Of a stretch of 64,000 bases of DNA, positions 5,085 to 60,618 are shown in pieces. The stretch lies in the NCBI GenBank assembly GCA_007844125.1, contig CM017563.1, positions 24,800,394 through 24,864,393 on the forward strand, in the 5' to 3' direction. A model generated the notes under the pieces. That model saw only the letters and a program-made list of their open reading frames with translations, did not search any database and had not been told where the DNA came from. Source of the stretch: Sinonovacula constricta (lineage: Eukaryota; Mollusca; Bivalvia; Cardiida; Solecurtidae). A program made the translations under genes and the position numbers. Every line of letters begins with the position of its first letter. Within the stretch, counting starts at the first letter, position 1.

Positions 5085-6453
<1,369 letters not shown>

Positions 6454-19161: not shown

Positions 19162-19212
19162 TCATAAGAACTTGGACTCCAAAGCCAGATAAGGCCAGAA
19201 ATTCAACCAATA
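19162..19212 (-). CDS. ACER3: Ceramidase exon 11 (last coding exon)
   Basis: Acceptor ccgtttcag; reads YWLNFWPYLALESKFL then TGA at 19162-19164. It corresponds to the FLFGIWPVILFEP end of ACER3. The alternative frame (VEFLALSGFG...) is longer but does not fit the phase-0 donor of exon 10. Confidence 0.82.
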   Translation of the reverse strand, partial: YWLNFWPYLALESKFL

Positions 19213-22200
19213 CTGAAACGGTAATGAAAAATGATTGTGTTAAATGTGATGTGGTGTTAAAACAAAGTAGAAAATAAGTTGTTAAACAACAACGAAACTT
19301 ATAATAAGATAGTTTATTTAGAAACAAAAACAAAAGAAACACTGTTTTTCAAACAACAATAAATACAAGTTGTTATACAAGAACAATAGAAACCACATGT
19401 AAAGCAAGATGGCCATGTTGGCACTTTATTGATTCTCTGAAGGCATTACATGTAAAGTAACTGAGAGCAAACATATCAGCAAGTTTTTGATTTTGTTTTG
19501 AGACCACAGCAACCAATCACGATCATTATAGTGACGTCCAGCTGTTTTGGTTAGGTAAACCCCAGACAAATGTCTGGGTAGAACCACTGGCACACCACAG
19601 GTCAGGTGAAAGACTTTCCCACATTAAGTCTTTCGTCGATCGAGACTCAAACCCATGCGGCGGGTGGCTAAGCAGTCAGAGGAGTAATAAATCAATGAAT
19701 CTACCACTATGCAATTGACGCCCCAGCAATTTTTCAAAAGACCAGAAAAATTGGTTTACCATTTGATTTAAGAGTTACGGTCTTGACAAAAACGTTTTTT
19801 TCAATATGGCCATATGAGGAGAATAGCTATGTTTTTGTTGCATCCGTTTCTTTTACAATCTTGAAGGAAGGCCATCAAACAACTATACTAAAAACAAGAC
19901 TCTAGCTCTTTAGGTCTCAGGAAAGAAGTTTTTCAAAGTTTTACTTTAAAAAAATGTCCACACCTAGGCAGCACATGTCTTTTGAGGTACACTTGTTTTA
20001 AAATCTTGATAGGGGGCCACCCAAAGAACATGTATATCAAATATCATGGCTTGTAGTTTATGCAAAGATGATTTCCATAGTTTCTCTTGATGGCCATATG
20101 TGGAAAATGGCCATGTTTTTGTTGCATCAGTTTCTTTATGAAAGATCATCAAACAAATTTACTAAAAATCAAGACTATTTAGGTCTCAGGAAAGAAGATT
20201 TTCAAAGTTTTACTTTGAATTGAAAATGTCCACACCTGGAAAGACATGTCTTTTGAGGTATACTTGTTTTAAATTCTTGACAGGGGGCCACCCAAAGAAC
20301 ATGTATATCAAATATCATGGCTCGTGGTTTATGCAAAGAAGATTTCCATAGTTTCTCTTGATGGCCATAATGTGGAAAATTGCCATGCTCCTGGTGGGTG
20401 GTAAATGTTTTTTGGGACATAAAAATTCTTTGAGTAACTATTCCTTCCCTTCCAAACTGAAAATTCTGAAGAAGTTGGGTTGACTTTGGTCAAGATATTT
20501 CAGAGGAGATTTTAAAAAAAATGGTTATAGATGCTGGGTTGCAGGCGGGGGGTGATCACAGCAGCTCACCTTAAGGATATGCTCAAGCAAGCATTAGAGA
20601 AACAACAGAAAAACAACAGCAAAAAGTTCAGTTAAAACAATCAGAGAAACAACAGTATGTTACAATATGTTACATCAAATATACCAACAAAAACCTTGAG
20701 TCAAATACAACTTTTAAAACATGGTGACAAACAACAAAAACAAAACATATTGCAAAAGCATGCGCTTAAACAATATAAAAAACATTTCTTAAGCTAAACA
20801 AAGTGCATTTAGGTCATTACTATGTACACTACAATACTATAAAATATTATATAAAAAATTAACTTAAGAAAAGTGTTACTAACACCATACAGCAATAATC
20901 TGTATACTTTAATGAAATTTACTGAAATGATTTACCTTAATTCTTGACTTTTGTTCCAATACAACACATCGTGTATGGGCACTGAAAAAAAGGACAATTT
21001 AACTGTATAAAACAAAACATAGCAATCTTTCTTTACTATTTTCAGTGTTCAATGCAAGTAATAAGATTGCTTCTTTGCAATGCTGTCCAAAATTCACGGG
21101 TTTAGAAAAGACTTGCATTTTCCAACAAAAATCTGTTATGATGTCATTGTAGGGATGCTATTGTGAAATTGCTTTTTATATTTAAATATACGCTCACTTT
21201 ATAATAAAAGCTTTATGCAATATTGTCCACTTTAAATGTTGAACCAGTGAACTGAACATATATTTCCTATGAAAAATTATTAGTATATTGAAGCAGTATA
21301 TAGAACCTTTAAGACAGTGCTTGTACAGCCAAACTTGAATGTAATAATGTTTTGTATTTTGTTTTTGAAATACACCACAGCGACCAATTATCATCATTAT
21401 ATATTAGCTATTTTTGGTAGAGGAAGGCCCCAAAACAAATGTCTGAGTAGAACCACCAGCTCACCTCAGGTCAGCTGGAAAACCTTCCCACAATTAGTCC
21501 TTCGCCCCAAACAGGACTTGAACACGGTGAGAGACTAAGTGGTCAAAGGTGTTACTAATCGCAACTACCACTATGCCACGGGTGCTCCTTTGAATGTAAT
21601 AAGCCATGGTTATCAGATATGATTAAAATGTTCACATATCCTGTACTACTTGTGGGTACATGTACAGACTAGGCTGTTAAATGCATGACCCCAACAACCC
21701 TGTAACAGGTACAAATTTATAAAGCTGGGTGGTCTGGAACCCATAATGCGAAAGGAAACTGGGATCTAAATAAAATCAACCATAAAGGCAATGACAAGTC
21801 TTTCATCAGTTGATGATTCCCCTTCTTAAACATGCATGTTTATGTAAGTTTATATGGTTTATTATTCCACCAACAGTATTTCAGTTATTCAGAGACAATA
21901 TCCACTTGAAGCAGATATAGTGCTGCCTTCACTGTGTAGAGCATGGCGTGAACACCTGGCATGATACCACACGCAGTCACATTATCCTGGCACTGTGCCA
22001 GCTAGTCGTGGAACTACCCTTATATTTGCTTGAGCGTTAGCAAGGGGGCTATACCAATATCATTTTAACAACTTTGGTATGTCGTGGCCCGGGATTGAAC
22101 CTGGGGCCTCTCGTACCTGAAGCCAACGCTCCACCAATTGCTCTACCAGGTCCAGTAAAATATGCATTTATACACACAAGAAAATAAGACTGAACCACGA

Positions 22201-25200
22201 TGCAGTCTTTCATCAGTTGATGAACCCACTTTTTAAAAATGCATGTATACTCACATGAAAATAAGACTGAGGTAGGTACCCAGTCCAGCTAGGATATGCC
22301 ACCAGGCGTGAAGTTCAAGGACGGGAGACAACACACCCGCTATTCGGCGTACAATCCTGCAACCATGAACACGTGGGTTTATTTACAGTAGCATTAAATA
22401 TGTAGGCAAAATAAGTCAATCTGATCAGAGTTTATGAAACAAAACAGTTGACCATTTTCACACCATGAACCATCTTCAGAAAACTGGAATTATGGTATAT
22501 TTTGCAACATTTACTTTAACACAGAAATTTGTGTTCACTTGAACTTATAAGTCTAAGTGAGATATTGTTTGAAATTAACACAAAATGAACTTGGTGTAGT
22601 TTCAAATGTCAACAGCAGAATAAGATAGTCACAAGAAAGTATGAACTTCAGGACAAAGGTATTGACATACAAGCCAAATGTAACAGTAAGAACAAATATG
22701 TGATGCGTCATTAAATGAAAAGAGCAAACCCAACAGATGCTGACTTGGAACGGTCGGTCGGCAAAAGGGACCGACTGGGGTGCTTAATCCTGTTTTACAG
22801 AGCTCTAACCTAACATTTTTGTTATTCTATATATAGCAGAAATCAACAAACAAAATTGTGAATAGTTATAAAGACACGGCTAAGACAAAGCTACTGTAAT
22901 AAATAAAAATTTAACAAAAAGTCACAACTAAGTTAACATTAAGCCAGTCATGATATGCCAACGACATACACACGAAGCTTAGTACACCATATCAGTCCTG
23001 TAATGTTATATTAAAATCCAACTGTCGCCAAGAAATAGTGCAAACAAATCTTGTCTATAGATGGGCATGTCTCTAATATCCCCTATATAATTCATACCTG
23101 GGGTATAATAACATGAAGTGCTTCAAGAATACCATTGTCAAACCATCAACAAACTGATTCAATATACACTGTAAATATCATTCCGATAGGGAATTTTCTC
23201 AATAAAACTTTCTCTTTAAACTCATTTTTGATGTTTCAGCCGGTTAGTCTTTTTTTTTAAATTATAACACAGCGATTAACAACTCTAAATTTTGTTGCTT
23301 TTTTTGTACAAAAGAATAAGGTGACTTAAAATGGAATTGTTTATGATTCTCCAGACATGTACTCAATTAAATATGCTATATTGCTCTAGACATATACTCA
23401 ATTAAATATGCTATATTGCTCTAGACATATATTCAATTTAATATGATATATATCTCCAGACATGTACTCAATTAAATATGCTATATTGCTCTAGACATAT
23501 ATTCAATTTAATATGATATATATCTCCAGACATGAATTCAATTAAATATGCTATATTGCTCTAGACATATATTCAATTTAATATGATATATCTCCAGACA
23601 TGAATTCAATTAAATATGATATATTTCTCCAGACATGTATTCAATTTAATATAATGTTCTAGGCATATATTCAATTAAATATGATATATATCTCCAGACA
23701 TGTATTCAATTTAATATAATGTTCTAGGCATATATTCAATTAAATATGATATATTTCTTCAGACATGTATTCGATTAAATATATTGTTCTAGGCATATAT
23801 TCAATTAAATATGATATATTTCTCCAGACATGTATTCAATTAAAGAAAAGTAAAATACACAATGCACAAGAGTTACTTAGTTAGTCTTTTTGAAGAAAAT
23901 CTATTGGTGTCATACATACTTACCCAACCTTATATGTATTAGATAATTTTGTACTGTTTGACAATCAAAAACAACCTCACTTTTAATTCATCTTGTTGGT
24001 TTGTAAAAAAGATGTACATGGCCAGAAATCTTCCACAAGCAACCACAAAGAGGTGCTATCAATTATCATTATAAATTAAGTTTTATCAGCAAACTGTTGA
24101 ATACCACCTTTAAAGAAACAGTAATTTTTACAAAGCCTACTTACTGCAAGGATTGACAGTACTCATATTTCTATAAAGCCTACTTACTGCAGGGATTGAC
24201 AGTACTCATATTTCTATAAAGCCTACTTACTGCAGGGATTGACAGTACTCATATTTCTATAAAGCCTACTTACTGCAAGGATTGACAGTACTCATATTTC
24301 TATAAAGCCTACTTACTGCAGGGATTGACAGTACACATATTTCTATAAAGCCTACTTACTGCAAGGATTGACAGTACTCATATTTCTATAAAGCCTACTT
24401 ACTGCAAGGATTGACAGTACTCATATTTCCATAAAGCCTACTTACTGCAGGGATTGACAGATAAAGCCTACTTACTGCAGGGATTGACAGTACTCATATT
24501 TCTATAAAGCCTACTTACTGCAAGGATTGACAGATAAAGCCTACTTACTGCAGGGATTGACAGTACTCATATTTCTATAAAGCCTACTTACTGCAGGGAT
24601 TGACAGATAAAGCCTACTTACTGCAGGGATTGACAGTACTCATATTTCTATAAAGCCTACTTACTGCAGGGATTGACAGTACTCATATTTCTATAAAGCC
24701 TACTTACTGCAGGGATTGACAGTACTCATATTTCTATAAAGCCTACTTACTGCAAGGATTGACAGTACTCATATTTCTATAAAGCATACTTACTGCAAGG
24801 ATTGACAGATAAAGCCTACTTACTGCAGGGATTGACAGTACTCATATTTCTATAAAGCCTACTTACTGCAGGGATTGACAGATAAAGCCTACTTACTGCA
24901 GGGATTGACAGTACTCATATTTCTATAAAGCCTACTTACTGCAGGGATTGACAGTACTCATATTTCTATAAAGCCTACTTACTGGAAGGATTGACAGTAC
25001 TCATATTTCTATAAAGCCTACTTACTGCAGGGATTGACAGTACTCATATTTCTATAAAGCCTACTTACTGCAAGGATTGACAGTACTCATATTTCTATAA
25101 AGCCTACTTACTGCAAGGATTGACAGTACTCATATTTCTATAAAGCCTACTTACTGCAGGGATTGACAGATAAAGCCTACTTACTGCAGGAATTGACAGT

Positions 25201-28200
25201 ACTCATATTTCTATAAAGCCTACTTACTGCAAGGATTGACAGATAAAGCCTACTTACTGCAGGGATTGACAGTACTCATATTTCTATAAAGCCTACTTAC
25301 TGCAGGGATTGACAGATAAAGCCTACTTACTGCAGGGATTGACAGTACTCATATTTCTATAAAGCCTACTTACTGCAGGGATTGACAGTACTCATATTTC
25401 TATAAAGCCTACTTACTGCAGGGATTGACAGTACTCATATTTCTATAAAGCCTACTTACTGCAGGGATTGACAGATAAAGCCTACTTACTGCAGGGATTG
25501 ACAGTACTCATATTTCTATAAAGCCTACTTACTGCAGGGATTGACAGTACTCATATTTCTATAAAGCCTACTTACTGCAGGGATTGACAGTACTCATATT
25601 TCTATAAAGCCTACTTACTGCAAGGATTGACAGTACTCATATTTCTATAAAGCCTACTTACTGCAGGGATTGACAGTACTCATATTTCTATAAAGCCTAC
25701 TTACTGCAAGGATTGACAGTACTCATATTTCTATAAAGCCTACTTACTGCAAGGATTGACAGTACTCATATTTCTATAAAGCCTACTTACTGCAGGGATT
25801 GACAGATAAAGCCTACTTACTGCAGGGATTGACAGTTCTCATATTTCTATAAAGCCTACTTACTGCAGGGATTGACAGATAAAGCCTACTTACTGCAAGG
25901 ATTGACAGTACTCATATTTCTATAAAGCCTACTTACTGCAGGGATTGACAGATAAAGCCTACTTACTGCAAGGATTGACAGTACTCATATTTCTATAAAG
26001 CCTACTTACTGCAGGGATTGACAGATAAAGCCTACTTACTGCAAGGATTGACAGTACTCATATTTCTATAAAGCCTACTTACTGCAAGGATTGACAGTAC
26101 TCATATTTCTATAAAGCCTACTTACTGCAGGGATTGACAGTACTCATATTTCTATAAAGCCTACTTACTGCAAGGATTGACAGTACTCATATTCCTATAA
26201 AGCCTACTTACTGCAAGGATTGACAGTACTCATATTTCTATAAAGCCTGCTTACTGCAAGGATTGACAGTACTCATATTCCTATAAAGCCTACTTACTGC
26301 AGGGATTGAAAGTACTCATATTTCTATAAAGCCTACTTACTGCAAGGATTGACAGTACTCATATTCCTATAAAGCCTACTTACTGCAAGGATTGACAGTA
26401 CTCATATTTCTATAAAACCTACTTACTGCAAGGATTGACAGTAGTCATATTCCTATAAAGCCTGCTTACTGCAAGGATTGACGGTACTCATATTCTTATA
26501 AAGCCTACTTACTGCAGGGATTGACAGTACTCATATTTCTATAAAGCCTACTTACTGCAAGGATTGACAGTACTCATATTCCTATAAAGCCTACTTACTG
26601 CAAGGATTGACAGTACTCATATTTCTATAAAACCTACTTACTGCAAGGATTGACAGTACTCATATTTCTATAAAACCTACTTACTGCAGGGATTGACAGT
26701 ACTCATATTCCTATAAAGCCTACTTACTGCAAGGATTGACAGTACTCATATTTCTATAAAGCCTACTTACTGCAAGGATTGACAGTACTCATATTTCTAT
26801 AAAGCCTACTTACTGCAAGGATTGACAGTACTCATATTTCTATAAAGCCTACTTACTGCAGGGATTGACAGTACTCATATTTCTATAAAGCCTACTTACT
26901 GCAAGGATTGACAGTACTCATCTATAAAGCCTACTTACTGCAAGGATTGACAGTACTCATATTTCTATAAAACCTACTTACTGCAGGGATTGACAGTACT
27001 CATATTCCTATAAAGCCTACTTACTGCAGGGATTGACAGTACTCATATTTCTATAAAGCCTACTTGCTGCAAGGATTGACAGTACTCATATTTCTATAAA
27101 GCCTACTTACTGCAAGGATTGACAGTACTCATATTTCTATAAAGCCTGCTTACTGCAGGGATTGACAGTACTCATATTTCTATAAAGCCTACTTACTGCA
27201 AGGATTGACAGTACTCATATTTCTATAAAGCCTACTTACTGCAGGGATTGACAGTACTCATATTTCTATAAAGCCTACTTACTGCAAGGATTGACAGTAC
27301 TCATATTTCTATAAAACCTACTTACTGCAGGGATTGACAGTACTCATATTTCTATAAAGCCTACTTACTGCAAGGATTGACAGTACTCATATTCCTATAA
27401 AGCCTACTTACTGCAGGGATTGACAGTACTCATATTTCTATAAAGCCTACTTACTGCAAGGATTGACAGTACTCATCTATAAAGCCTACTTACTGCAAGG
27501 ATTGACAGTACTCATATTTCTATAAAGCCTACTTACTGCAGGGATTGACAAGTACTCATATTTCTATAAAGCCTACTTACTGCAAGGATTGACAGTACTC
27601 ATATTTCTATAAAGCCTACTTACTGCAGGGATTGACAGTACTCATATTTCTATAAAGCCTACTTACTGCAAGGATTGACAGTACTCATATTTCTATAAAG
27701 CCTACTTACTGCAAGGATTGACAGTACTCATCTATAAAGCCTACTTACTGCAGGGATTGACAGTACTCATATTTCTATAAAGCCTACTTACTGCAAGGAT
27801 TGACAGTACTCATATTTCTATAAAACCTACTTACTGCAGGGATTGACAGTACTCATATTTCTTTAAAGCCTACTTACTGCAGGGATTGACAGTTCTCATA
27901 TTTCTATAAAGCCTACTTACTGCAAGGATTGACAGTACTCATCTATAAAGCCTACTTACTGCAAGGATTGACAGTACTCATATTTCTATAAAACCTACTT
28001 ACTGCAGGGATTGACAGTACTCATATTTCTTTAAAGCCTACTTACTGCAGGGATTGACAGTACTCATATTTCTATAAAGCCTACTTACTGCAAGGATTGA
28101 CAGTACTCATATTTCTATAAAGCCTACTTACTGCAAGGATTGACAGTACTCATATTTCTATAAAGCCTACTTACTGCAAGGATTGACAGTACTCATATTT

Positions 28201-31200
28201 CTATAAAGCCTGCTTACTGCAAGGATTGACAGTACTCATATTTCTATAAAGCCTACTTACTGCAAGGATTGACAGTACTCATATTTCTATAAAGCCTGCT
28301 TACTGCAAGGATTGACAGTACTCATATTTCTATAAAGCCTACTTACTGCAGGGATTGACAGTACTCATCTATGAAGCCTACTTACTGCAAGGATTGACAG
28401 ATAAAGCCTACTTACTGCAAGGATTGACAGTACTCATCTATAAAGCCTACTTACTGCAGGGATTGACAGATAAAGCCTACTTACTGCAGGGATTGACAGT
28501 ACTCATTGTCTATATTCCAGAGAATAAACCCTGTGCCGTATGTCACGGTGGCTGCAACCAGTAATGCCTTGTTGGTTCTCTCAAGCTGCCTGTAATATCC
28601 ATAGACCACAGTTACTTATATCTCAATCCACCATTTCTTACATCATGGTAGAACAATTTTAATTATTAACAACCTATTAATCACTTTTTGAATAATATAT
28701 ATATCTCCAGACATGTATTCAATTAAAGTAAGATATTCAATGCATAAGAGATAAACTTCAATTAGTGTTTTTGAAGAAAATCTATTGGTGCCGTACATAC
28801 TTTCCAAACCTTATATATTTTAGATAATGTTGTACTGTTTGACAATAACAAGTATCATAACAACAACCATAATAACAACACTAATTGCCTTTTACCTGAC
28901 TGTATTGACTGCTATTGTCACCAAGGATACAACCATAATTCCATAGGAAATCTACAAAACCATAAAAAATCTATAAAACATTACAAAAAAGTATATTATA
29001 ACACACATATTATATAACACAGAGTAAACCATTAAACAGTATTACATATTATTATTAATGACAACATTAAGATCTTATCTAATGGCTAAGCATTTCATGT
29101 ATAGGTTAATATGTCTATTGATAAACAAAAGAAATATATTTCAAAAAGGACATTTTTGCATTATGGTATATTGAAGAAAGGACCATACTTACTTGGAAGA
29201 AAACAGAGTTCTTGTTATAGATATAAACCTGCAAGAGAAGGAAAAGAGAAACCTAAGAAACAGATTATAACCAAACAATAGATAAGACATCACTTCTTCA
29301 TGTTAAAGGTACTGTCTGTTAGCTGGAGTCCAAAGTAAACAGTTTTCTAACATTTGCCAATCTTGAAAGATTACCATACACAGGTAACACTTATATACGA
29401 ATGATAAGAGAGTCTTAATGGTCCTAACAGATATTTTTCTAATTACACTATTTGATATTTTAAAAATCTGATTTGCTTGTGTCTTGTGAACACTTAAATT
29501 CAAGTGCATATATTGTATTTTTTAATTCCTTACAGCAGAAGTCTTAACTCAACTCATACACAAAACACAAAATAAGTGTTGTACTACAATATATTCTGAC
29601 AGTTCAACAAAGGCACGGCTCAGCAATGTGACAAAAGCAAGCATTAACTTTTTATATGACCATAATATTTCTGACTCATATGTCCCCATACATAACCAAC
29701 ATTTTTCAATATTATAATCTCTGTGTTTTTTTAATACATCGGAGCGATCTATTATGATCATCATAGCGATGTCCAGCTATACGGTGGAGGAAGACCCCAG
29801 ACAAATGTCTGGGTAGAACCACCGGCACACCGCAAATTAGCTGGAAGACCTTCGCACATTATGCTCTTCACCCTAACAGGGACTCAAATCCACGCAGTGA
29901 GAGGCTTAGCGGACAGAGGAGTTACAAATCGACGACTGTACCACTACGCCATGGGCCCCCATATATTATAATGTGATATGCATTATTAATGAAATAGGCT
30001 GCATAGTAAAGACAATGTTTCCCTTAAAATGAATCATTTTTAGACCAGAGTAAAAACCAGAACTGCCCAATTATACTTTTCTACTTTGTTCTGCAAAATT
30101 GTACCCCAGGACCATTCCAGGAAACACGTGTCTCTACTATACAGATATATATACCTTAAATAACACCAAAGTGCATTATCAGTACAACGCTATCCTGTAA
30201 TAAAATGGCGAAATAACGAAAAATGGGACATACTAGAAAATTGCTTAAAAATGTGATAGCTCAAAGGTGAACTGCAGCGAACAAAGTCTAACAAAGAACT
30301 GACCAACCAAACCCCTCCCTGTGTACATTCCCGCTTCTATATGCCTGACTGAACCTGTGTCACATGGCCTACTACATACTGAACCTACCAAACCGGTTTT
30401 GTTAAAATACCATCATTTATCAGTACAAAGTCAACATTTCTGATAATATTTTTAAAATAACCAGTTGTAACGTGTAGATTTACAAATAACAGAAAAATTG
30501 ATATGTAATAACCTGTTTTTCTTGTTATTTATTGACAGATTCTTCCTAATATCCACATACCCTAATTCCTAGGAGTTAATGCTCAGATATTCAGCTGATA
30601 AGCCTAGGCCCATATATTATATATAACACTACAAGGGTTAAGGCATTTGTTCATACTGTTTAATGCAGACAACTTTAAATTAAATTTCTACAAAATAATA
30701 AAAAAATATATGGCACAAGAACTAGACCAATAAAAAGTTGATAGACCACTCGTGGTGCCTACTTTAATCCAAAAGAACTGATAGGTGCCAATTGAATCAT
30801 AACATAGGTTTTATTTAATTTTAATGTAACCACTGTAGTGATCCCAATGTTTAATAAAACTACACAAAACAACCATTTAACAAGAATCCCTGGCTCAGTC
30901 AGTAGAGCCAAAAGCAGGCAAAATGCAAAATTGATCAGTTTTCTTTTTACAACCACTTCTAGAAAACATTTTAAAAGTTTATGAATGTAGTATTATGTAT
31001 CATGTTATAAGATACTTAAAAAGTAACTTTAAAAATGATTATGATAATGAATAAAAAATTTATTGTTTTAGTGTCTCAGATGTTGTTGTTTTTTTGAAAA
31101 TTGCATTTTAGAATCAAAGGATATGTTAAACAAATTATTCATTTTTCAATTATTTTAAAGTGAAACCTTTTAATAATTTACAGATAAGATTCTAATTTGA

Positions 31201-34200
31201 TGTACTAGAGGTCAGTTAATTGTCTTTTTCTGATTTCTGACTGGTGCCCTATTACGACAGGCTAAACTTTAAATAAGGTTTTAATGAAATAAATGATAAA
31301 CAACAGCAAATAAAAATGAGCAAGAGCTATACTTACTACTGTTACAATAAAGCAATAACTGAACAACACAACTTGCAATGGAAGGTTGTGTTTGTTTGGT
31401 GGTGTTTTAACTTCACAACTGAAAAAAACAAACACTATTGCTATCACATTCATTTATTAAATATTTAAACAGAGAGTAGAGAACCAAGTATTTTTATAGT
31501 CAATTAGGAAATTTTCCACTAATGTTAATCTCTCTCAACCGACCACCTTACCAAACATCATAAATTTTTTCTAAAAATGCTCTCACTTAAATCTTTGGCA
31601 AATTGCCTTTTATTAAGAGTTAAACATAAATCATTTCTGTGGTTTTCTACATGTAATATGGCAGCGCTTATAAATGTTTGCAAATATGTGGAGAAAGAAA
31701 TTGTTTATGAATAACTCTTGAGGCAATTTCCCGAAGACTTGAGTGAGAGCATTTTTTGAAAAAAATATAAGTAATACAGTTCCCTCTAGAAAAAATGTAT
31801 AACATCATATAGTTAGCTTGAGGTTCCAACCTGTAACCCTCTCTTCCACTAGATTACATAATCAAGATGACTAATTAATCAAAATTACTATTTTATAGTG
31901 TGGTTTTCTATGTCCTATGCTTTAAATCTGCTTGAATGATTATTGGGTTTATCTTCCAACCAACAGTTTTTCAGTTATCAGGAGACAGTGTCCACTTGAA
32001 GCAGATATAGTGCTGCCTTCACTGTGTATAGCATGCCTGGCACAATACCACACCCAGTCACATTATCCTGACACCGGGCCAACCAGTCGTGGAACTACCC
32101 TTATATTTGCCTGAGCATTAGCAAGGAAACTATACAACTACCATTTTTTAACAACTTTGGTATGTTGCGGCCTGGGTTCGAAGTTGGGGCGTACCTGAAG
32201 CCTCTGCTTGAATGAACTGAGAGCCACTGGCCCTTGTGGCATAGCAAATAAATCATCCACACATGTGCTAAAAGTTGAGGTTTTGAACTTACCACATTCT
32301 ATTTAATTATATTTGTTCTAAACCCAGAAAGATAACATGTTTTGACAGCTAATAGTGCATACTCTGATGAGACCTGAGAGGCAGCAAATTAATCTAAACC
32401 AAAACTAATTGCAAAGGCCAGATAAATGTGTGTTTAGATGTTGAAGTTTTGATAATAATTTATGTATGAGAGAAAAAAACAGGAGCTAGGTGTACATATG
32501 AAAATTAAGGTCAATTAATTATGCAGTATAAACAGTTAAGCTAAAGTCATGATATATTCATTAATGGTAAAAGATAGGACCATGCCCAAAGCCAGAGTAC
32601 TGAAGATAATGTCAAGAGAAACTGGGGCAATCAGATAAAAATTCCCCTATACTTTTTTTAAGGCAATTTAAAATAGGTCTATTCATACATTTACAGCCTA
32701 GTGAAAGTTTTACAGTCTAGTGGAAAGTTTTACAGTCTAGTTGAACAAAGATTTCCATTTCTTTCTCTTCAACAATAAAAAAAAGTTAAACTCGGGAATT
32801 TAACTTATTCGTTCTTAATAATTTCTGTAAATTTGAAATAAATTTGATGTTTTTATGCTAAAGGTTTTCGGCACATCTTTGTGACAATGTATCTTTAGCA
32901 TTACATAAAATCTCAAGCCTTACTGAGATATAATCTTATAATATTATCACATGGACTCAACTGGGATAAACAACTAATTCATGTTATGTCTAAATTGATC
33001 TGGCTAAGACAAATTGTGTAGATTCACATCAGTCAGATCAGGATCTGCACCATTTGTTTCAATAAAAAAATCAATAAAGTTACAACGTTTCTTACTTGTA
33101 CCAATCTTTACCCTGCAGCTTTTGTAAATAGCCCATATAAAATTATCACTTACATACTTACAATTTTACCCATGGTTAACAAGACACTATGCTTGAGACT
33201 TAGAAACAAATAGTGTTAACCCCAAATAGATAACTGACAGTGCCAACTGTCAAAATTAATCAATATATGCTTCAATGGCCAAAAGTTGATTAACTAGACT
33301 AATCAGCACATACTGACTAAAAGTAAAATAGTGTAGACCCAAATCAGCCACGATAGGAGCTACCAGATCACATTATACTGTATTTGTCACTATCTCTTTA
33401 AGAAAGCATCTTAATTAACTTACTTCATGAAATTGTGAAGAAGAAACTAAAATGTTAAAATTAATAATGTTACCTTATAAGGGTAAACAAAACCAGGTTT
33501 GTTATAATCAATTGTACTGAAGGCAGACCATGCTTCAATAAGCTTACACCAGGACATTTACAATGTAAATAACTATCATGCAGCATTGACCATGAACTTG
33601 AATGGGATAAATGCATGTGTTTACACCAGTTGAAGCATGTATTGCTTGACAACATCAAACTGCGAGTATTATCTGTCAATGTACTCTTCTCCAAGTATGA
33701 GAAAAAATATTTGTTATGCTATTTAAACTAGACTATTGACTAAAATAGCTCATAGGTATTACAGTTAGTAGCAATATAGATTGGGTACAGTGGTAAAGTG
33801 TGCACATTTAATGTAAAAGGAGAAACCCCGGGTTTGAATCAGGGGCAGATTCAGAAAATTTTGGTGGGGGTATGAGGATATGAATGAAGATCATATAAAC
33901 TTTATTGCAGTAAATACAAGATATATATATATACACTGTAAAGGACCCTAACCTCAACCAAAGCAGTCAACAGACACAATTTCCTTTAAAAGCATAGTAT
34001 TTTTTAACCTTATGTGCTTTCACAACTCTACTCTTTTACCAGGTTGGTGGAAGGGATGCAACCCTCCCCCCCACCTGGATCCATCCCTGTTTAGAATGTT
34101 GTTATTGCTTTTATGTTATTTCAAAACCTTGATGAATTTTGAGATTTTGGGAAGATTTTACCCTCTAGTTCTTCCATTTCTTTCCACAATTATTCCTAAG

Positions 34201-37200
34201 GTAGACACCATCTGGAGCAACTCCAGTGTATAGTTTAAAGGAAAGCATAATATTTACTGATAGTTGTATATCGTTTGGTCCCACTTTCCATTAAGGCTAA
34301 ACCTGTGCATAGATTTCGCTGAATCAGTACTGATTTGTTTGTCACATTAGAGGAGTTCTAGTTGTAACTGTAAACATTTTCTCCTGGGCTATATTGCTTA
34401 GTTTGCAAAATATGCAAAAAACTTTCTTGCAGGCAATATTTATGTACAGCTGTTTAGCATAAGACCTCATGATACTCTAATAATAGTTTGCTAAAAATTG
34501 TGCTAAGTTAGCAAATTTGGAATCTTAATTAATCTGCATTTTATGGTCCAACTTAAAGGGAAATATGTTGTTTGTCTGTCTGTGCATAGTTTTGGTACAA
34601 ACTTGAATCAGTTATCAACAACTAAGTTATGTTGTTCAAGGTTTATGTCTTTGCCTTTTTTCAGAGTTGTAGGGTAGGGTCAGTGTAGTAAACCAATTAA
34701 AACGATTTCTCTTTTGTCCAGATACATTTTTGAATGCATTTCCTACATTTTAGAAACAGGGGGTGGTGGTGGTCTCTCTCTGTCTCTGTCTCTGTCTTTC
34801 TCTCTCTCTCTATCTCTCAGTGACTCACTTAAATCATTAGAAACCAGATTAATATGCTAAATTTTCACTCTTTCTCTTGCTTCATATACTTAAAATTTGA
34901 TAAAAATGCAGATGCCGATCATGTAGCATTATAATGTAAGGCCAGGATCGTAAGTATGTCATGTTTACCCATATAATTATCCGAAATAAAGTGCCAATAT
35001 TACAGTACACTTTAAATATTCATATTTTTTATCAGTCCAAAGAATTGATCCCAGAAAACTAATCCATCAGTAGCTTTTATTTATTTTGTCCATCAAATGT
35101 GAAAAAGAATTGTTCGCATGAGCCACAAAAATACATCTTTCCCTATATAAACTATGGAACACTGAGGCCGCCATTATTTGCATTTGCCCGACCCTATCAC
35201 ACAGTGACCAGGGAAAGGAACTTCAGACTTCCTAGGAAGCCACTAGTTTGAAGACCCAAATCATATCTACTTATGACACTATGCCATCTGATACTTACAA
35301 TGCATAGACCAGGAATGCCGAGCCCCAAATCATTGGCAACTCATCTAGCAACTGAAATAAAATAATGCCATGGATTTTAATTAGCAAATACAGTGTTAAA
35401 TTGTTATTTTGTTACTAAAAGTATAATTTTAATCCATTATTAACAATGATTCATAAAAAAAAATGAGTTTGTGAACAAAAACAAACACTGCCAATGGCCA
35501 CTATGTTGCTGATCCTGATTAAGATAGCTCCAAGCTGGAGTTGTTTTTATGGTGGTACACTTTCTGTGAGGAATAAGTAACTATTAATAAGCATTATAAA
35601 GCTAAATATCAGACTTTCTTAAATTTTTGGTCAATAGGCCTTTATCTAGAGAAATGAACACTGGCACACATCCAATAAAAATAACAAATAATAACATTGT
35701 TATTGCATGATAAAAAGTACTGGAATATGAAAAGCCAGCAAAGGCTGTGTAAACTGCTCTTAATTATGGCCAAAAGGCCAAAGGTTTGAGAAAGAATAGG
35801 TAAATAAGAAAAGGTCCTATGAAAATTTCCACAGATATTTAAATTTAATCTACCTCTAGACAAAGGAAAACAGGGTAAATGTAAATGTGCCAAAAACACA
35901 GAGATGAGATATAACATACAAAAAGAAAAACTATCATTTACCGCCTTGGAGAGTCATATTAATTTTAAATGTTTGTCATTTTCTTTAGGGACATTAATTT
36001 GTCTGTTATGAATAATTACATGTATATATGCATGCTTTGTTGTTAAGATAAAATTATTGGCAAGATAAAATATGTTAAACAGCTTTAATAAATAAATTTA
36101 AGACACTGATTGTCCTTCAGACTGTTATATGGCTAATAAACAGACAAGCAGGCTATAGTGTATCATATCATATGAGCAGCTAGTGTTCATTACATTTGTT
36201 CAATATGGGTAAGGCAGAAAAACTATCTAACTAATTTATCATATCATAGCATAACACTGTAAATAAATCAAAACCTTGCTTAAGGCAGTGCCTTGGCCAA
36301 ATAGACAAAGGTGTGGGGACTTAAACGTGATATCCTACAGTTTGCCTAATTCTAATACATATAACAATATCAAACCACTGCTTTGGAGAATAAGGGCTTA
36401 ATTTTTGTAAAAGCACATTCTGTAGTCTTAAAAAATATGATTTTGAACACTAACTGATTTGTTAGATAGAACTAATCACGAAAAAAATTTACTCCAAACA
36501 TGTATTCTTTCCAAGAGTATAAACAGCTGGAAAGTGGTCTCTGCTAAAAATAGATTTTGATGTCAGAGCAGTTAAACAGATGACTTTATAATGTGATCCC
36601 AAAGAAAATGGTTAGCTAAGTTTAAAAATAGCCATCTCTGCAACGTGGCTTGGATAGGAACTACCTGTTTGGAATGTTGAGTGGTGATTTATGCTTGAAT
36701 GCACACACAGATCTAGGACATCAATGTACAGCCTTTTACAGGACCTTTTGAGTAACGATGACTTATTTGGTTATTTGAGAAAATAAATTTTGGTCCACAC
36801 TGCCGGATACCACCTTTAAAGAATCAACAGCCACTAGCACTAATTTGAACAGCGCAGAGTATTCTTCTTTATAATTAATGTTCACTTAAAAAAATTAATC
36901 TCAGCTTAAACTCTATTTTATTGTAAATTGATTTTTATTGTACAGTGTAAAATGCATTATTTTGTTAAAGATATTCAATTATATAACAAAGTCTTATGAG
37001 CATTGCAACATATATAAAATGTGAAAAGGCACAGGACCAAGGTATTCACATGCAAGCCAAATGTAAAAGTAAGAACAAATCTGTGATAAGTCATTTAACA
37101 AAAAGAGCAAACCTGACAGCTACCGCCTTGGAACAGCCAGTCGGCAATGTTATGTATATTGCCCTCAAGAAATGTAAATCCATTTCGGGAATTCTCCAAT

Positions 37201-40200
37201 ATAATAATTAACCCAGAACTAAATTGATGTCACACATTTTATATATATTCGACCAATGATATTTTGTTATGCAGATACATGGTTAAAATTAGAAAATACA
37301 TCACCAATATGTGTTCTGTGTTGAAAGTTCACAGCGAGGGTGGTGGCATTTTCCATGCACAATTTTTGTTATCTCCAAAATGGCATGAATGGTAGTTCAA
37401 TAAAATAGATATGAGTTAATTTGAGTAGCGGACAAAAAGAACAATAAAAATTTGTCCAGAAAACGTAAAATACGCTCGACAGAAGACGTTCTTTGTATGT
37501 CATATAATGATTCATCAGATGGTATACTTGGAGAGGGACGGTTCCTGGCAATAAGGGTACATATAGGAAATTGAATGCCTGGCAGTGTAAGGGTTAAAGT
37601 TGGTATCTGATGGATCAAAAATACTTTTATTAAACATAATAAACCATCATTATATGAACAGATTGCGCATTATGCTGTTTATTGATGTCCCTTACCAGTC
37701 TGAAAAGTGAACTATAATGCTACAATCATCATTTCAAATATGTATTTCCTATCTCAGCCACGCTGCACAGTTAGCTGTTTTTTAACTAAGAAAACCCCAC
37801 GTTTTATTGCCCCAAAATTGAGATACTGTTGAAAATTGTAAAAGCTAAGACTAAAGTTTGAACTTTTTCTTCAGAAATTATGTACAAACAGAGGTCATAT
37901 ATTGTTACACATATTAGATAAAAGCAAACTGTAGGATACCACCTTTAAAGTAAAATCAGGTTTTATGAGTTGTAATCTTTACTGTTTTATCCAATCAGTG
38001 TTCACTCGGCAAGGAAGAGTTAATTTGCTACGGTTAAATAATCTACTTTTACCTAAAAAAACCCAACTCATCTCTACCATGCATGGCTGACCATATCGCC
38101 CAAGGGTTTTCTAAATCTCATTGACAGTATTCACTGACAGTGAACGAGGTATTTATAATTAAACAGCTATAAAACATGCATAAATAATGCTTCAAGATCA
38201 CAATGAATATCGATTTACATATAGATGTATTTTTTAATGATTTTTATTCTCTTATAAAACATGCAGAATCAATCCAATCTTAAGCAGACTTAACAATTAA
38301 TTTCAATTAAGAAATATTTGATTAGGAATACTTTAAAAAAGTATAAGAGACAGAAAACACTGATTGTATCAACTTGATACATTTTTAATCTTCCTCCGCT
38401 ACTGCCTTTTACTAGTTTATTTCTTTGGTGGATTCAATCAATACAAGAGAGCAGTAAAACTAGTGACATTCGAAATAGTATAAAATTATAATGAATACTG
38501 GTACAGTGGTTTATGTTCAAAGGAGTCCTAGTTGTAAAAAAACAGGTGGTTTAATTATATCAACAATGATTAATGGAATAAAAAAATAATCTCTGATCAT
38601 GAGATTATATCTTAATATTCTCTCTTTTAAAGGTGGTATTCGACAGTTTGGACCAAATTTTTTTCTTTCAAAGAACAAAAAAAATTATTGTTGCCTGAAA
38701 AGATCTCGCAAAATGCTAATAATTAATGTCATTTATCTATTTGAAAAGCATAACACATCATTCGTCATTACAAATAGGTATTTCCTATTTAAGCCATGTT
38801 GCACAGTTAGCTATTTTTAAACTTAAAAAACTACATGACCCCTAACTTTATACAATCATTTGGCTATGACGTCAATGTCTATTTTTAGCAGAAATCACAA
38901 TCATGCTTATGTATAGTTTTAGAAAGAATGGGCATGACAAGTGATTTATTTCACAATTTCTATTGTCTTACAATTTAAACAATATTCAAAATCATCTTTT
39001 GTGAGACTTAGGTTTAAATTTTTGCAGAAATTATGTTCCAGGTTAACGTGTATTTGATAAAGACAAACTGTTGGATACCACCTTTAAGAGATTGGAAGAA
39101 TTTAATTTTAGTTGTCTTAAAAAGAAAAACATTGTATATCTAAGTACTGTTCATACAGTAATATATGCCAGGTGTGTACACCATTCACACAACAAATACT
39201 GGTTGGTTCAATAGTCATGCAATAATGAGCGACATTAATGAGTAGTCTTCCCTGAATAATCCCTAAATGCAAGTAGGTCTTTTCATTTGTTTTACTCAGT
39301 TTTTATGCTTGTGCTCTATGGATTGTATACTGACTTTTCTGTCTTTCTTGTGATACCCAGGTTAACCGTCATCAACAAACACTTCCATATATTTTTTTAA
39401 AAAACATATCTTTATGAGCATTTAAATTAATTTTAAGCTTATATTTATGCAAAAGTAAAAAAATTTACTTTTGTAATTGCAATTTCTACAAAAGAACTGG
39501 CAATAAAGTCCAAGAATTCCACTTAAAAGGACCTCCCTACTGTTTGGAATACATTGGATATTAACTAACAAGGGAGACAATTTCCATTTCACCCATGTAC
39601 CCCATTGTTTAGTAATACATAGTAAGTGCCAACCAAATAGTTCTTCCTCATGCACCTATGCAATACAATGCCCAAGTTTTAACCTGCTGAGCAAGTATTT
39701 TATATACCCAGCTCCAAGCTGTCTAATCAAGATCTGCCTCAGTCACTGCTGCTGAATACTTTGAAATATGTCCAGTTTAGTTTCCATAAAGTTGTAAGTT
39801 AAAAAAGAGCTTACAATGATTTTTTAAAAACAGTAGCAAGCTTGCGATAAAGAAAACATTCTTAACATGTTTATTGGGTTTATCGTCCCACCAACAGTAT
39901 TTCAGTTATTCAGAGACTGTGTCCACTTAAAGCAGATATAGTGCTGCCTTCACTGTATATAAAATGCTGTGAACACCAGGCATGATACCACACCCATTCA
40001 CATTATCCTGACACCGGGCCAATTAGACATAGAACTACCATTATATTTGCCTGAACGTTAGCAAGGGAGCCATACCACTACCATTTTTTTAATGACTTTG
40101 GTATGTGGCGGCCTGGGATCGAACCCTGGGCCTCCCGTACTGACGCTCTACCAACTGCGCTACCAGGTCTGTAAATTCCATATGACAATCAATATTTACC

Positions 40201-43200
40201 TGCATACTATATAACAGAGTCATATGGAAGCACCAGGAACCAATGCCCACACCTGAAAGTAACAAAAGTGACATTATAATTTTCTCAAATAAAAGAAAAG
40301 GTAACAAAAAAACATTCATTTCTTTAAAGGTCCCTCATTGAGATCTAAAATTACATTTCTCTCTATATATATATGCATGTTTTAAATATGGCCAAAAGTG
40401 AATGTGGTCATTTACCTTCAAGCCTATTAAAACCTGTCAGATATGAGCTCTTCAAAGCTGCCCCTGCAAAATTGTTGTTTACTTGACATCTCATAAGCAA
40501 CCACCTGTTATCTGCACCTACAGACCTAAGCATTATGATGGGCATATTTTAAGAGGGTTGCTAACATTCAACATAACTTGTTTTAAGAGACCTCTTGTCT
40601 TAAGAGACCATTAAAACAAGTCCCTTGCATGGCCTTTTAATACAAGTTTGACTATATTTACAAATACTCAAAAGATAACCATGCAAAAGCAAGGATTTTT
40701 TGATGATGTGCTGATGTTTAATTGCTTTGTTATGATTGTTTTGTTCTGAAATTAACATCACATTATCAATATAATTACAATAGTCATTATGTTGATATCC
40801 AGCAAATAGCATACACAGAGACATAATTCCCTATGGGAGCATTCTGAGGAAGCAACATCATATCCTTCGATATATATACATGTATAATTAATATGAAAGA
40901 TTTGAGGTGGCTGCTGCGGTGTAGTGGTAGTGCACTTGACCGTTAACCAAGAGGCCCGCAGTTCGATTGCCGGCTGCGGCGGTCAATTTTTCATGCTGAT
41001 TTTCGGTGTTATAAATAGCAAACAGACAATTGCATCTGTAAAGTCATCTGGCACTGTTTCTTCAGTAGGGACTGGATCTCTATATAAGAGGTAGAGGCTA
41101 ACATAAATGTCTTGTTAGCGCGCCTCACACCATAGTTAACCGTTTCGGTCAGCTGAGTCGGTAGTTACAAGAACTGCCTGCTAATGTTAGCTAGATAAGT
41201 CTAATCTCTGCAAGATAATACACAGCTACATGTAGCAAGAGATCCATTCTGCTGCCTCTACCAAAGGTCAAGGGATGAGTTTTGCCAATATTTTTGCCGA
41301 TATAGTGCATCAACATTTCTATCATTATAGCATGGGGGAACTTATGAGGTGCCCAGGGTCCACTGAACCCGGCCTGTCCATTATACTGACACCGACGAGT
41401 TAGGCATAATGCTGTCCCCTTAGCCCCGAATGTTAGGAGGGAAGCCACTACAACCACCTTTAAAGTCTTTGGTTTGACCCGACCGGGAATCAAACCTGCG
41501 ACCTCATGATCCGCAAGCCGACGTTCTACCACCTGAGCCATTGCGGTAAAGGACTTTTAATTTAAAATAGTGAATCTTTTTGTTTTAGTCGGGGTATTTT
41601 AAACAGCAGTGTAAACTAGCCTGATCTAGATCCAGACTTGTTAAACCCAGAATTGGATACATTCTTTGTTGAAGGAGATACATTGTATGAAAGTCAAACT
41701 TGGTTCACATTCATTATCCTCTGTAACATAGGGGTTTACAATAGTTACTATAAGTTTCCCTCCTACGTCAGCTAGTTGTAAAACTAGGCAATGCTACAAG
41801 GTGAATCATAATTGAAAGGGTCCCTGCGTAAAATAAAGCTTGAGGATGTATATATTATCTTCAATCATATCCTTATATGCCAACATACATTCCTAGTGTT
41901 ATACTAGATCTGAACTATTCACCTAGTTGAAATATTGCAAGCTTTGATGCATTTAGTATTTATTTTAGACACCCTTTTCACAGTTATATGAGCAATGTTT
42001 TGATCCAGTAAACTGGCAATGAACCAGTTATTGGACACAATAATATGTTTTACTCCAATCCGTAAAGTTAGCTTGTGTCTATTTATAGAAATTAGTCAAG
42101 CATAGAACTATTGACCAAACTTCATTCATTAAACACTGGGGTATATTCGTATGACTTTTTTCAAGGTATGTTTAAGTTACAAGTGTATAGTAGCCCGACA
42201 TGCTATAGGAATGTTGTTGACATTTAAAGTACCTGATGTATTATGCCCGTTCTTTGTATAAATGCAGCACCGGTTTTATCGTGTTTATAATTATGTACAC
42301 AGTAACCAAACAAACAGCTGGTAGAACTGCGAAGAAGACTTAATATCTTTTTTAACTGAAGGAGACTTAAGCCTTTACCTTTTTGTTCTGAATGCATAAA
42401 AGGTGTAAACTTAACATGTAATAGTTTAGTCGAAGTTCTAGTTCCTGGACACGATACATGACTGAAAATATTTCCTTTGAAATAAAATCATTTTTGTTCA
42501 AATAAAATAAAGCATACAAAACTATCTTTGTTAAAAAGAAATAAAATTAAAATGTTTATATTTATATAATCTTTTTAATATTTTAAGACAAACTTTATAG
42601 TACTATACACAGAGGCAGTTCATGTCCATTCCAAATACATTAAAAATTGTTCTAATGAAAGTAAATATTTACAAGTATTTTCATAAATGGGTTAAATCTT
42701 CTGCAACGATTACAAAACAATTTTAGAGATCTCTTCAATTGAAAATATTGACTACACTTTTCTCACAAATATTCAACTCACAAGCAGATTCCAATATATT
42801 TGTGTATACATACATTGATTGATTAGCTTCAATAACATTCTATTATTTTGGGGGCACTGTAGATATATTAAACCAGCATAATTATTGTTACACAATCAAA
42901 ATTTAGCTTTCATCCATGAAGGACAACCCCAGACAAATGTCTTGAAAGAACCACTGAGCACAACATTAGTCAGCTTTAAAGCCGCCCTACATAAAAGTTC
43001 ATGCACGATCAGAACTTGAACAAATGCTGTGAGGGTTACAGACGCAGTCTGCAGCTTTATCCAAAGGGTCACTGATGCACGTAATAACCCTTATTCAAAA
43101 TACCCTGGAAATCTGTGCAGCGTTACCCAAAGGGCCACTGGTGCATGTAATAACACTTATTCAAAATACCCTGGAAATCTGAGCAGCTTTATCCAAAGGG

Positions 43201-45798: not shown

Positions 45799-46243
45799 GG
45801 ATATTGATATTATATAATCATTTACATAATATGTATTACTTATGTCGAATACATCAAAATTTATTTATGAGAAACAGAATGTCCATAGAAGCATAAATGG
45901 ACAGACAGGAGAAACTGTTAACGTCTCCCTTACCATTAATTGAATAACGGAGACATATAGAACAAAACAATGTCTATTTGGGGAATGTTTATCACAAAAT
46001 AATGTTACCAAATACAACTGTAACTTCAAAATAATATGGGTTATTAACAACCAATGCTAATCATGGCAGGATAATAAGTATGTTTGATTGAGGTTGTCAA
46101 TATGTAGCTGGCTTCAATTGTTGCAAACAGTTGCCAGACAATACATATTGATCACATTATGCAGAACATGTAGTAATGGTTTGAGATTCAATGCTTCAGT
46201 GTTTTGCTAGCTCATAAAATATCTCCTCATCTTAAGTCTTTAA

Positions 46244-46625
46244 TGACACACATTAATGAATAGTCTCCCCTCAATAATCCCTAAATGCAAGTAGGTCCTT
46301 TCTTTTGTTTTACTCAGTTTTTATGCTTGTGCTCTATGGAGTGTATGTTGACTTTTCTGCCTTTCTTGTGATACCCAGGTTAACCATCATCAACAAATAC
46401 TTCCATTTTCTTTTTTAAATAACAAATCTCTATAGGTATTTAAATGGATTTTAAGCTTATATTTAAGCAAAAATAAAAAAAAATCACTGTTTGTAATTGC
46501 AATATCTACAAAAGAACAGATGATAAAGTCAAAGAATTCCAACTAAAAGAACTTACCTACTATTGGGAATACCTCGGATATTAATTAACAATGGAGACAA
46601 TTTCCATTTCACCAATGTACCCAAT
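46244..46625 (+). repeat. Repeat family D, copy 3
   Basis: ATTAATGAATAGTCTCCCCT ... GGAGACAATTTCCATTTCAC; full length. Confidence 0.78.
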
Positions 46626-47096
46626 TACTTTCAGCTAATTCATGTACATGTATTGACGTAACTGCCAACATACAGTAAAATCTTTCATATCATTACAATA
46701 AAAAAGATACCAAATCATTGTGTGGTCAAACTATCATACACAACAATAACTGTGTCACTGCATATCCTGTTAAACATTCTGCATGATGACCATGCAGCAA
46801 TAAATGAAAGATGGCCACCATGGGTGTTGAGGTGCCAACCATGAGCTCCCCAAGTTGCGAGACATTTTATTGTGGTTCTTGTGTGTGTGACTTTAACTCC
46901 TTTGTTGTTGAAACTTACAGAACAGAAACTCATAAACAGATGCACCCATGTAAACAAGACAGATTACAGGTTCCAATATGGAACAATGACAGAGTTGACA
47001 AAAAATGTAAAATACACTGTACGTGAAATGCTAGAATACACATCGCCATACAGCATGAGGTTTTGAATCATCAGGTTAACTTTAACAAGTAGAAAT

Positions 47097-54665: not shown

Positions 54666-55162
54666 TCCTGAAGGGTTTCTCAAATGCAAGTAAAAACTTT
54701 GTCAAAATGTTTGAGTTTATGAAATATTGCATAGCCTTGAAACTTGATCATGCATGTGGGGGTTAAACATACGGTCACTGGGTCAAAATATGGAGAAACA
54801 AGAAATGTCTTTAAAAAGACAAACGGCGTCGGATTAAAAAAAAACGAAAAACAAGAAATTTCTTTTAAAAGGCTATGCGGCGTTTGTGAAGCATTAACTT
54901 ACACATTTTTATCGTGTTTATGTTTCTATTGAATATAAATTTGTGAGAAGAATGGCATGAAAATGGTGTACATTTTTAAACTAGTCGCCCGCTCCATCTG
55001 CGCCTCATAATTCTCACGTAATAGGCACTTAAAGTTACGAAGTAGTTAGATCGTGCCGGAAGTGAACGGTCTGCTTTGCGGCATATGACAGAAATGATGT
55101 TTAAACAAATGTAGGATCAAGTGACATTTTATACACTATATACAATAATACTGTAGGAAATG
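54666..55162. other. Probable intron 1, gene-free part
   Basis: A slightly less AT-rich patch at 54985-55085 with several CpG steps; no exon recognised. Confidence 0.35.
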
Positions 55163-55524
55163 GGGTACATTGGTAAACTGGAAATTATCTCCTTTGTTTG
55201 TTAATATCCGAGGTATTCCAAAGAGGAGGTAGGTCCTTTACAGTCGGAATTCTTGGACTTTATCGCCCGTTCTTTTGTAGATTATGCAGTTACAAACGGT
55301 GAAATTTCTTTTGCACCAATATAAGCTTAAAATCCATTTAAATACTTATAGAGATTTGTTATTTAAAAAAGAAAATGGAAGTGTTTGTTGATGATGGTTA
55401 ACTTGAAGTCAAAGAAGTCAACATACACTCCAAAAAGAACAAGCATAAAAACCGAGTAAAACAAATATAAGGACCTACTTGCATTTAGGGGTTATTCAGG
55501 GGAGACTATTCATTAATGTCACTC
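55163..55524 (-). repeat. Repeat family D, copy 4 (reverse orientation)
   Basis: GGGTACATTGGTAAACTGGA ... GGGGAGACTATTCATTAATG. Confidence 0.75.
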
Positions 55525-56521
55525 ATTGATATAGACTTGTTTATGACTTAAATACCTGTATAAATAACTATATATCGCCACCCCGAGGACGTTTATTAGA
55601 AACACTACGGTATATGATGCTATTAGGAATTTCTACTAATGGGAATCGCTCTGATATTCATTCAGGCTAGCCTTGAGTCAGCATTTGTAAGTAGGTCAAA
55701 AGTGAGGTTAGACAGCTACGCCGAAAAAACATTGTGAACAGATCTTTACAAATCTTGGTCAGAATGTTTGGGTTTATGAAACAAAATGTTATTTCTGGCT
55801 TAAAGTGCTGGATACCGCCTATAACTGATTGCCCCAAATCTTGTTGCAAATAAAAGGGGCTCTTATCAGTAAATGTAACTGCTCTTGTAGCTGCATAGTC
55901 TCCCCCTATAGGTCTGATACAAACTGTAAACACAGAAACATGAACAAAGCACCATTTAAGCAATAACATCATTTAAAAGCACAGATGAGTTGATATCCGT
56001 GGTTTTATTTCTCCACTGCAAGTAAACTCAGTGTTTGATCTGGGTTCTATCTGTTTGCATAAGTGTCAATACATTTTTAATACCTAGTGATAACAATGTA
56101 ATGTGTACCAGTCAAACATAAGAGAGCAGATACAATTATCTTCAATCACACAGATGGCTCGCTAAGATCTTAGACAGTTTATAGTCTGTTGTTTACATTG
56201 ACCACTTTAAGACGATAAGGATGTACACTTTGTTGCCTTTATTGTCCAATCGATGGATCCCTATAGCTTGCTAATTGTTCTCTGTAGGTAAACTAAGTGG
56301 GTGGCGACTTTACAACATACAATTTCAAAGTACTTTAAACTTGCTGCTAAAAACACTACAAATCGTACTCAGAGGTATTCTGAGGCGACTAAATTGAACT
56401 TCAGAAAAGGTCCTGTTATGTTAGTATAAGCAATTGTCAGAGAAGCACATAGTTATGTCTGTGCTATTGTTACTGTACTTGGTAAGAGTGCTAACACTTA
56501 GCTGGGTAAGTACAAATTTAC
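55525..56521. other. Probable intron 1, gene-free part
   Basis: Contains only a possible MITE M end fragment near 55800 (GTGCTGGATACCGCCTA). Confidence 0.35.
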
Positions 56522-60512: not shown

Positions 60513-60618
60513 TACAAACTGAGTTCCCTCATTGGGGTGTAGCAAATGATTCTCATAGTACATTTTACTTTTTATTTATACTTTTTCCTTTAAATGCTAT
60601 GTTGAGAAACCTCATGTA

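Follow-up and report, generated by a model that had tools for sequence, protein, structure and literature searches.

A splice-donor junction multiplied about 100-fold as a minisatellite within its own intron in a ceramidase gene of Sinonovacula constricta

The 64,000-nucleotide stretch of the Sinonovacula constricta genome analyzed here (assembly GCA_007844125.1, contig CM017563.1, positions 24,800,394 to 24,864,393; hereafter the window, with positions counted from its first letter) carries on its minus strand exons 2-11 of an ACER3-type alkaline ceramidase gene (19162..44721), the eighth intron of which is largely occupied by a minisatellite built of copies of its own 5' splice junction. The gene was modeled on P0001, a 260-residue protein obtained from contigs of at most 1030 bases, which matches the structure of human ACER3 (6g7o) with an E value of 2.9e-64; the GT-AG candidates that best fitted this protein were taken as exon boundaries, and every intron between exons 2 and 11 has GT-AG ends. 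By this fit, the exons lie at 44721-44611 (exon 2), 40252-40200 (exon 3), 35351-35299 (exon 4), 31418-31337 (exon 5), 29228-29193 (exon 6), 28951-28896 (exon 7), 28485..28589 (exon 8; 105 nucleotides [nt]), 22255..22356 (exon 9), 20981-20936 (exon 10), and 19212-19162 (exon 11), all on the minus strand, and together they encode residues 30-260 of P0001. Exon 9, which carries the HAWWH motif, matches on its own the Pfam Ceramidase family (PF05875; E 2.9e-7, 30.6 bits, below the curated cutoff of 32.5). Among the matches listed, the nearest named relatives of the protein are all from bivalves, namely Mactra antiquata (66% over a 195-residue query), followed by Sinanodonta, Dreissena, and Mya. 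The gene spans ~45 kb, and exon 1 is located just beyond the window, at 24864734-24864832 of the same contig (C9 below), which shows the exon numbering used in an initial annotation of this DNA to be correct.

Intron 8 (22357..28484, minus strand; 6128 bp, with boundaries set by the fit to P0001) opens with the genuine 5' splice site, GTAAGT (28479..28484), which is the one used in P0001; the exon 8 terminus reads CCTGCA|GTAAGTAGG (28589-28485, minus strand). Downstream of this donor, the junction is repeated 106 times (24124..28484, minus strand), giving 107 donor cores, the genuine one included, between 28485 and ~24124, in an array that extends over 4.35 kb and makes up ~71% of the 6.13-kb intron. 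The second core lies 30 bp past the genuine donor, that is, the array adjoins the end of exon 8, and the spacings between copies are mostly 43 bp (84 cases), with 30 bp (15), 39 bp (6), and 44 bp (1) making up the remainder. The donor core is GTAAGT in 100 of the 106 downstream copies, GTAAGC in five, and GCAAGT in one, and the roughly 100-fold amplification of the exon 8 junction described in the initial annotation is thereby borne out. The annotation had further taken these donors to be identical in exonic context, which is only partly correct, given that the last 22 exonic bases are matched at all 22 positions in only 35 of 106 copies, at 21 positions in 52, and at fewer in 19. The commonest difference between units is a C/T alternation at column 7 (CTG/TTG) that would be synonymous in the exon 8 frame. 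With tandem units within the range of ~10-100 bp, many copies, and variable length, the array is a typical minisatellite, or variable number tandem repeat (VNTR). As a separate observation, the TATA-like motif TATAAA is present in most units on the strand opposite the gene (plus strand), its complement TTTATA occurring 87 times in the sense array (24124-28484).

The core of the array is found 134 times in the 1.22-Gb genome, as 91 exact cores in the window array and 43 on another contig, C7, where a second copy of the ceramidase gene, with intact exons 2-11 and a shorter donor array of its own, is located at 47037000-47069300. These two loci are the only ones in the genome that match the ceramidase protein (11 matches, with 26 of 26 candidates scored). 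Across 232 codons of exons 2-11, the two copies are distinguished by three synonymous changes and one amino acid change (R242K), and the aligned DNA outside the arrays differs at 700 of 25,196 bases (2.8%). The C7 array comprises 46 downstream copies, 45 of them with GTAAGT, spaced mostly at 39 bp (22 of 46) and dominated by a unit type unlike that of the window array, within an intron 8 of 5529 bp; the downstream copy number, 106 in the window and 46 on C7, hence differs more than twofold between genes in which exons 2-11 are intact. Although tandem arrays are a common assembly error, it is highly improbable that the array is an assembly artifact or a wrongly sized repeat, considering that the 43-, 39-, and 30-bp unit variants are ordered along it and that the second locus has a different array of the 43-bp junction unit.

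A local segmental duplication or a misplaced allele or haplotype would account for the C7 copy. Pieces matching at ~95% connect C9:24.770-24.899 Mb with C7:46.989-47.123 Mb, covering ~130 kb around the gene, and a block 0.5 Mb away, at C9:24.30 Mb, matches C7:46.82 Mb at 94%. Probes of 4 kb from C9:5.0 and 25.3 Mb yielded no full-length C7 copy among the 40 candidates scored for each (of thousands), and when the 25.3-Mb probe was compared with 80 kb of C7, no match reached 600 bases. A large tandem segmental duplication with steps of ~80-110 kb was also observed toward lower coordinates from the window, with five copies on C9 (24204041-24590788) and two on C7 (46735730-46822936). Intron 8 harbors a second minisatellite (23347..23841) with 35/65-bp units, which is unrelated to the exons tested and measures ~0.5 kb in the window and ~2.6 kb on C7. 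Exon 8 and the donor array are flanked by two copies, in the same orientation and 84% identical, of another sequence (28688-28846 and 23805-23965), both of which are also present at C7.

The founder of the repeat can be identified precisely. The 43-bp consensus unit corresponds to the last 22 exonic and the first 21 intronic bases of the junction, agreeing at 41 of 43 positions when the end of exon 8 is combined with the distal flank of the window array and at 43 of 43 positions when it is combined with that of the C7 array. The unit composition given in the initial annotation was accordingly right for the last 22 bases of exon 8 and the GTAAGT core, but fell short for the intronic part, which amounts to 21 bases rather than ~10. 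A founder of 29 exonic and 13 intronic bases was considered and rejected, as it requires additional changes. The exonic half of the unit encodes residues that are conserved in ceramidases (14 aligned animal sequences, with D187 and C191 invariant), and the copying therefore proceeded from the exon to the array, exon 8 being, as judged from sequence comparison, the source of the latter. The window is rich in minisatellites, eight of which are at least 400 bp long and together fill 15.7% of its length, so that an array merely resembling the end of an exon by chance might be envisaged. Such a coincidence has a negligible probability, and the 43-of-43 founder refutes it. Matches to the end of exon 8 elsewhere in the window, on either strand, do not exceed 9 nt, which excludes chance resemblance, and when the seven other window arrays were compared with nine further exons and their near flanks, the shared sequence was at most 11 nt.

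The identity of the donor in use follows from P0001. Because the gene extends over ~45 kb and the contigs behind P0001 do not exceed 1030 bases, this protein would derive from spliced RNA, and assembled read archives are taken here as its source. The joined window exons 2-11 reproduce P0001 at 231 of 231 residues, with R242 as in the window locus and not K as on C7, and exon 8 is connected to exon 9 at the first donor, with no added segment. We infer that 28485 is the last base of exon 8 in some mRNA at least, with the first donor in use; the initial annotation had staked its proposal on precisely this boundary, which the complete agreement with P0001 upholds. Reading through the first donor produces CAG TAA, an immediate in-frame stop, and HAWWH is placed in exon 9, as expected from the earlier suggestion that use of any later donor would truncate the enzyme ahead of this motif. 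A query ending at SLQ recovered no truncated form of the ceramidase among the best 120 of 433 hits, in which members inside clusters are not visible, and only the first-donor product is found among P0001 and the listed protein matches.

To the array the initial annotation had assigned a possible function as a decoy, a splicing buffer, or a telescripting signal, and none of these is favored by the analysis: the donor columns vary like the other columns, the genuine donor pairs with U1 about as well as other donors of the gene, the junction region is no more stably folded than shuffled sequence, and array lengths differ more than twofold. Deviations from the consensus, counted without the C/T column 7, gap cells, the unit of the genuine junction, and the terminal unit at the far end of either array, which lies partly in flanking sequence, amount to 8 of 1350 in the donor 9-mer and 38 of 4549 elsewhere in the unit for the two arrays together (Fisher p 0.48), to 7 of 945 and 29 of 3260 for the window array alone (p 0.84), and to 1 of 405 and 9 of 1289 for the C7 array alone (p 0.47). 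Neither array shows a sign that selection keeps the donor bases beyond the rest of the unit, although weak selection would be compatible with these counts. As a decoy or buffer, the array would bind U1 small nuclear ribonucleoproteins (snRNPs) and lower or tune the splicing of intron 8, diverting some transcripts to a stop-containing form that decays. Consistent with such a role, GTAAGT is retained in 100 of the 106 copies, its pairing with U1 equals that of the real donors of the gene (-7.2 kcal/mol for the genuine donor-U1 duplex and -6.8 to -8.3 for six other donors), read-through meets TAA, and decoy 5' sites promoting intron retention are described in the available text of PMC8706089. The donor columns are, however, no more conserved than the remainder of the unit, the length of the array differs between the gene copies, and the correctly spliced product is the only one seen, with no truncated cluster among the hits considered above, which makes a decoy or buffer role unlikely.

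Telescripting, in which dense U1 binding would shield the long intron from premature cleavage and polyadenylation, is very unlikely. The array does lack AATAAA and ATTAAA, seven of which occur in the remaining 1.8 kb of intron 8, and this is compatible with telescripting without being an argument for it; against it, intron 3 contains 18 such hexamers and no internal GTAAGT, so that an array answers no general need, and no selection is seen on the donors. Several other roles for the repeat were considered and set aside. Sequestration of the donor by RNA structure is not indicated, as the predicted fold of a 401-nt segment that includes the junction does not exceed those of shuffled sequences in stability (z +1.06; 87 of 100 shuffles were equally or more stable), and recursive splicing at the repeat was rejected because CTGCA|GTAAGT, as the sequence reads, recreates no donor once joined. 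The AG dinucleotides of the array have no support as acceptors; that of the unit is preceded by pyrimidines at 11 of 18 positions, compared with 9-17 for the ten real acceptors of the gene.

Arrays containing donor-like motifs are not confined to the ceramidase loci. Random founders with the unit sizes found in the window would be expected to span one of the nine donors 0.029 times per window, which would scale to some hundreds of cases per 1.22 Gb if the density of genes and arrays throughout equaled that of the window. Genome searches, which count matches rather than arrays, returned 2309 matches for three tandem AG|GTRAGT motifs against 1781 for the reversed-pattern control, and 1659 for tandem AA|GTAAGT against 1901. 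The listed AG|GTRAGT matches cover at least nine arrays, of which seven (L042-L048) were examined and two, consisting of G-rich 13-mers, were left aside. This sample is preselected for donor motifs and an array necessarily matches its own first unit, so that protein homology of the first unit is decisive. By reading of the sequence, the array reaches an exon-like donor at six of the seven loci. The first junction agrees with the array on both the exonic and the intronic side at 51 of 53 positions in L042 (C1:5427000-5430500), 60 of 61 in L043 (C1:64919500-64923000), 27 of 31 in L044 (C2:10783500-10789000; 13 exonic and 18 intronic bases), 44 of 46 in L045 (C2:3031500-3035500), and 44 of 50 in L046 (C1:68870000-68873000), and on the intronic side only, at 23 of 25 positions, in L047 (C1:78751500-78754000); no exon was seen beside the array of L048. 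Of the six exons, four (L042, L043, L044, and L047) were compared with known proteins, and homology confirmed two, one WIPI3-like (L043, E 3.8e-11) and one ASCC3-like (L044, E 1.1e-32). The exon of L042, which may belong to PIKFYVE, and that of L047 gave no informative protein match, the latter resembling only designed, repeat-like proteins. The 39-bp unit of L043 is open in frame at the first copy and acquires a stop in a later one.

Taken together, these observations are best explained, with a probability of roughly 0.8, by a neutral, junction-derived minisatellite that is tolerated while the exon-proximal donor remains in use. A 43-bp segment across the junction of exon 8 and intron 8, with 22 exonic and 21 intronic bases, would have been tandemly duplicated, and the duplicate would then have expanded from this observed founder, presumably through repeated slippage or unequal exchange. 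As it was the exon-proximal donor that stayed in use, the copies came to lie within the intron. Splicing from the first donor to exon 9 gives the full enzyme, as P0001 indicates, whereas splicing from any later one would add 30 to ~4340 nt beginning with the in-frame TAA, and such transcripts would be expected to be lost to nonsense-mediated decay. The array is most likely close to neutral, since its length differs more than twofold between two gene copies with intact exons 2-11 and since, relative to the rest of the unit, the donor bases have been neither retained nor lost preferentially. Given a minisatellite-rich genome and junction-derived arrays at other genes, such events probably recur whenever minisatellites happen to be born across a junction and are not a device specific to the ceramidase.

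Several points weigh against this interpretation. Equal variation per column may also be compatible with weak selection acting at the level of the entire array, for example, on copy number, and homogenization within an array makes its copies nonindependent. Donor-bearing arrays are common in the genome, but their excess over the control is not clear, and four exon pieces taken from the other arrays, including both of those later confirmed by homology, had no match in Pfam. P0001 is evidence for use of the first donor but not for disuse of the others. Of two equal donors in vitro, the intron-proximal one is often favored; use of the first among ~100 is not self-evident and may require help from exon definition or kinetics.

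Minisatellites that supply several splice donors in tandem have a precedent in human IFI6 (G1P3, 6-16), in which, according to the title of Turri, Cuin and Porter 1995 (NAR 23:1854; PMC3618361, PMC4526556), a minisatellite "provides multiple splice donor sites" and, in the available text of PMC4526556, downstream repeat units serve as donors, giving different isoforms. Two hallmarks of the IFI6 type, a donor in each unit and an array adjoining the end of the exon, are found in the ceramidase array; as to a third, the use of several donors in mRNA, only the first-donor product has been seen for the ceramidase. Unlike IFI6, where downstream donors are used, as far as the accessible account goes, and isoforms result, read-through in the ceramidase gene hits an immediate stop; the ceramidase array is further distinguished by its 43-bp unit spanning exon and intron, by its 106 extra copies, and by occupying ~71% of the intron. 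Tandem duplication across exon-intron boundaries is also known from work on intron gain, including the Rogers model, the potato RdRp gene, and 24-bp repeats in fission yeast (PMC4974935, in the portion available), where, as here, short segments duplicated in tandem span a splice signal or give rise to one, and the extra copies are intronic. In contrast to those cases as the portion available presents them, no new intron with a GT and an AG of its own arose in the ceramidase gene: intron 8 is still spliced from its original donor to the acceptor of exon 9, and it became longer as the existing donor was multiplied ~100-fold. Decoy 5' splice sites, exemplified in the text available by the exonic decoy of the Drosophila P element, decoy exons, and intron retention (PMC8706089), resemble the array in placing extra donor-like sites, which could bind U1, near the true donor; in the P-element and decoy-exon cases, as presented there, the sites are single or few and regulated, whereas those of the ceramidase are ~100, nearly identical, and without evidence of regulation. 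Effects on splicing are also associated with intronic VNTRs, such as those of hTERT, which are similar in being length-variable repeats near exons. The units of such VNTRs are not known to be copies of the donor junction of their host exon. A limited search of the literature found no closer case.

Splice-donor minisatellites as such are already known; unusual here are the copy number, the junction-exact unit, the presence at two loci, and the probability that several genes have been affected. It is conceivable, although we put this forward only tentatively, that donor-junction minisatellites form a recurrent class in this bivalve lineage, with tens to ~100 copies of an exon end in many genes and splicing at the first copy, the last trait being seen in the ceramidase only. 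If so, donor choice in vivo would follow a robust first-come or exon-definition rule, junction arrays would contribute to the growth of introns and might also lengthen exons (the first 39-bp unit of the WIPI3-like gene being open in frame), and there could perhaps be U1-related effects on transcription. Most work on the choice among equally strong donors has relied on minigenes containing two or three sites. The ceramidase provides a native gene with ~100 nearly equal donors, in two copies of different length, of which the product seen uses the first, so that the roles of donor order, exon definition, and removal of surplus U1, the last of which Hodson and colleagues are said to have described in 2012, become testable in a native setting, and other genes of this genome may repeat the experiment. 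A simple route for the growth of introns from exon ends is also illustrated.

Apart from the minisatellites, the window contains two families of dispersed repeats. One, of ~385 bp, is present in both orientations at 39221-39606, 46241-46626, 55151-55527, 61452-61837, and 60156-60514, and the other, of ~300 bp, at 15155, 21848, 31940, 39868, 45486, 47096, 50131, and 62042. In addition, a perfect run of 45 TA copies adjoins a 1-kb array of 21-bp units at 5264-6452.

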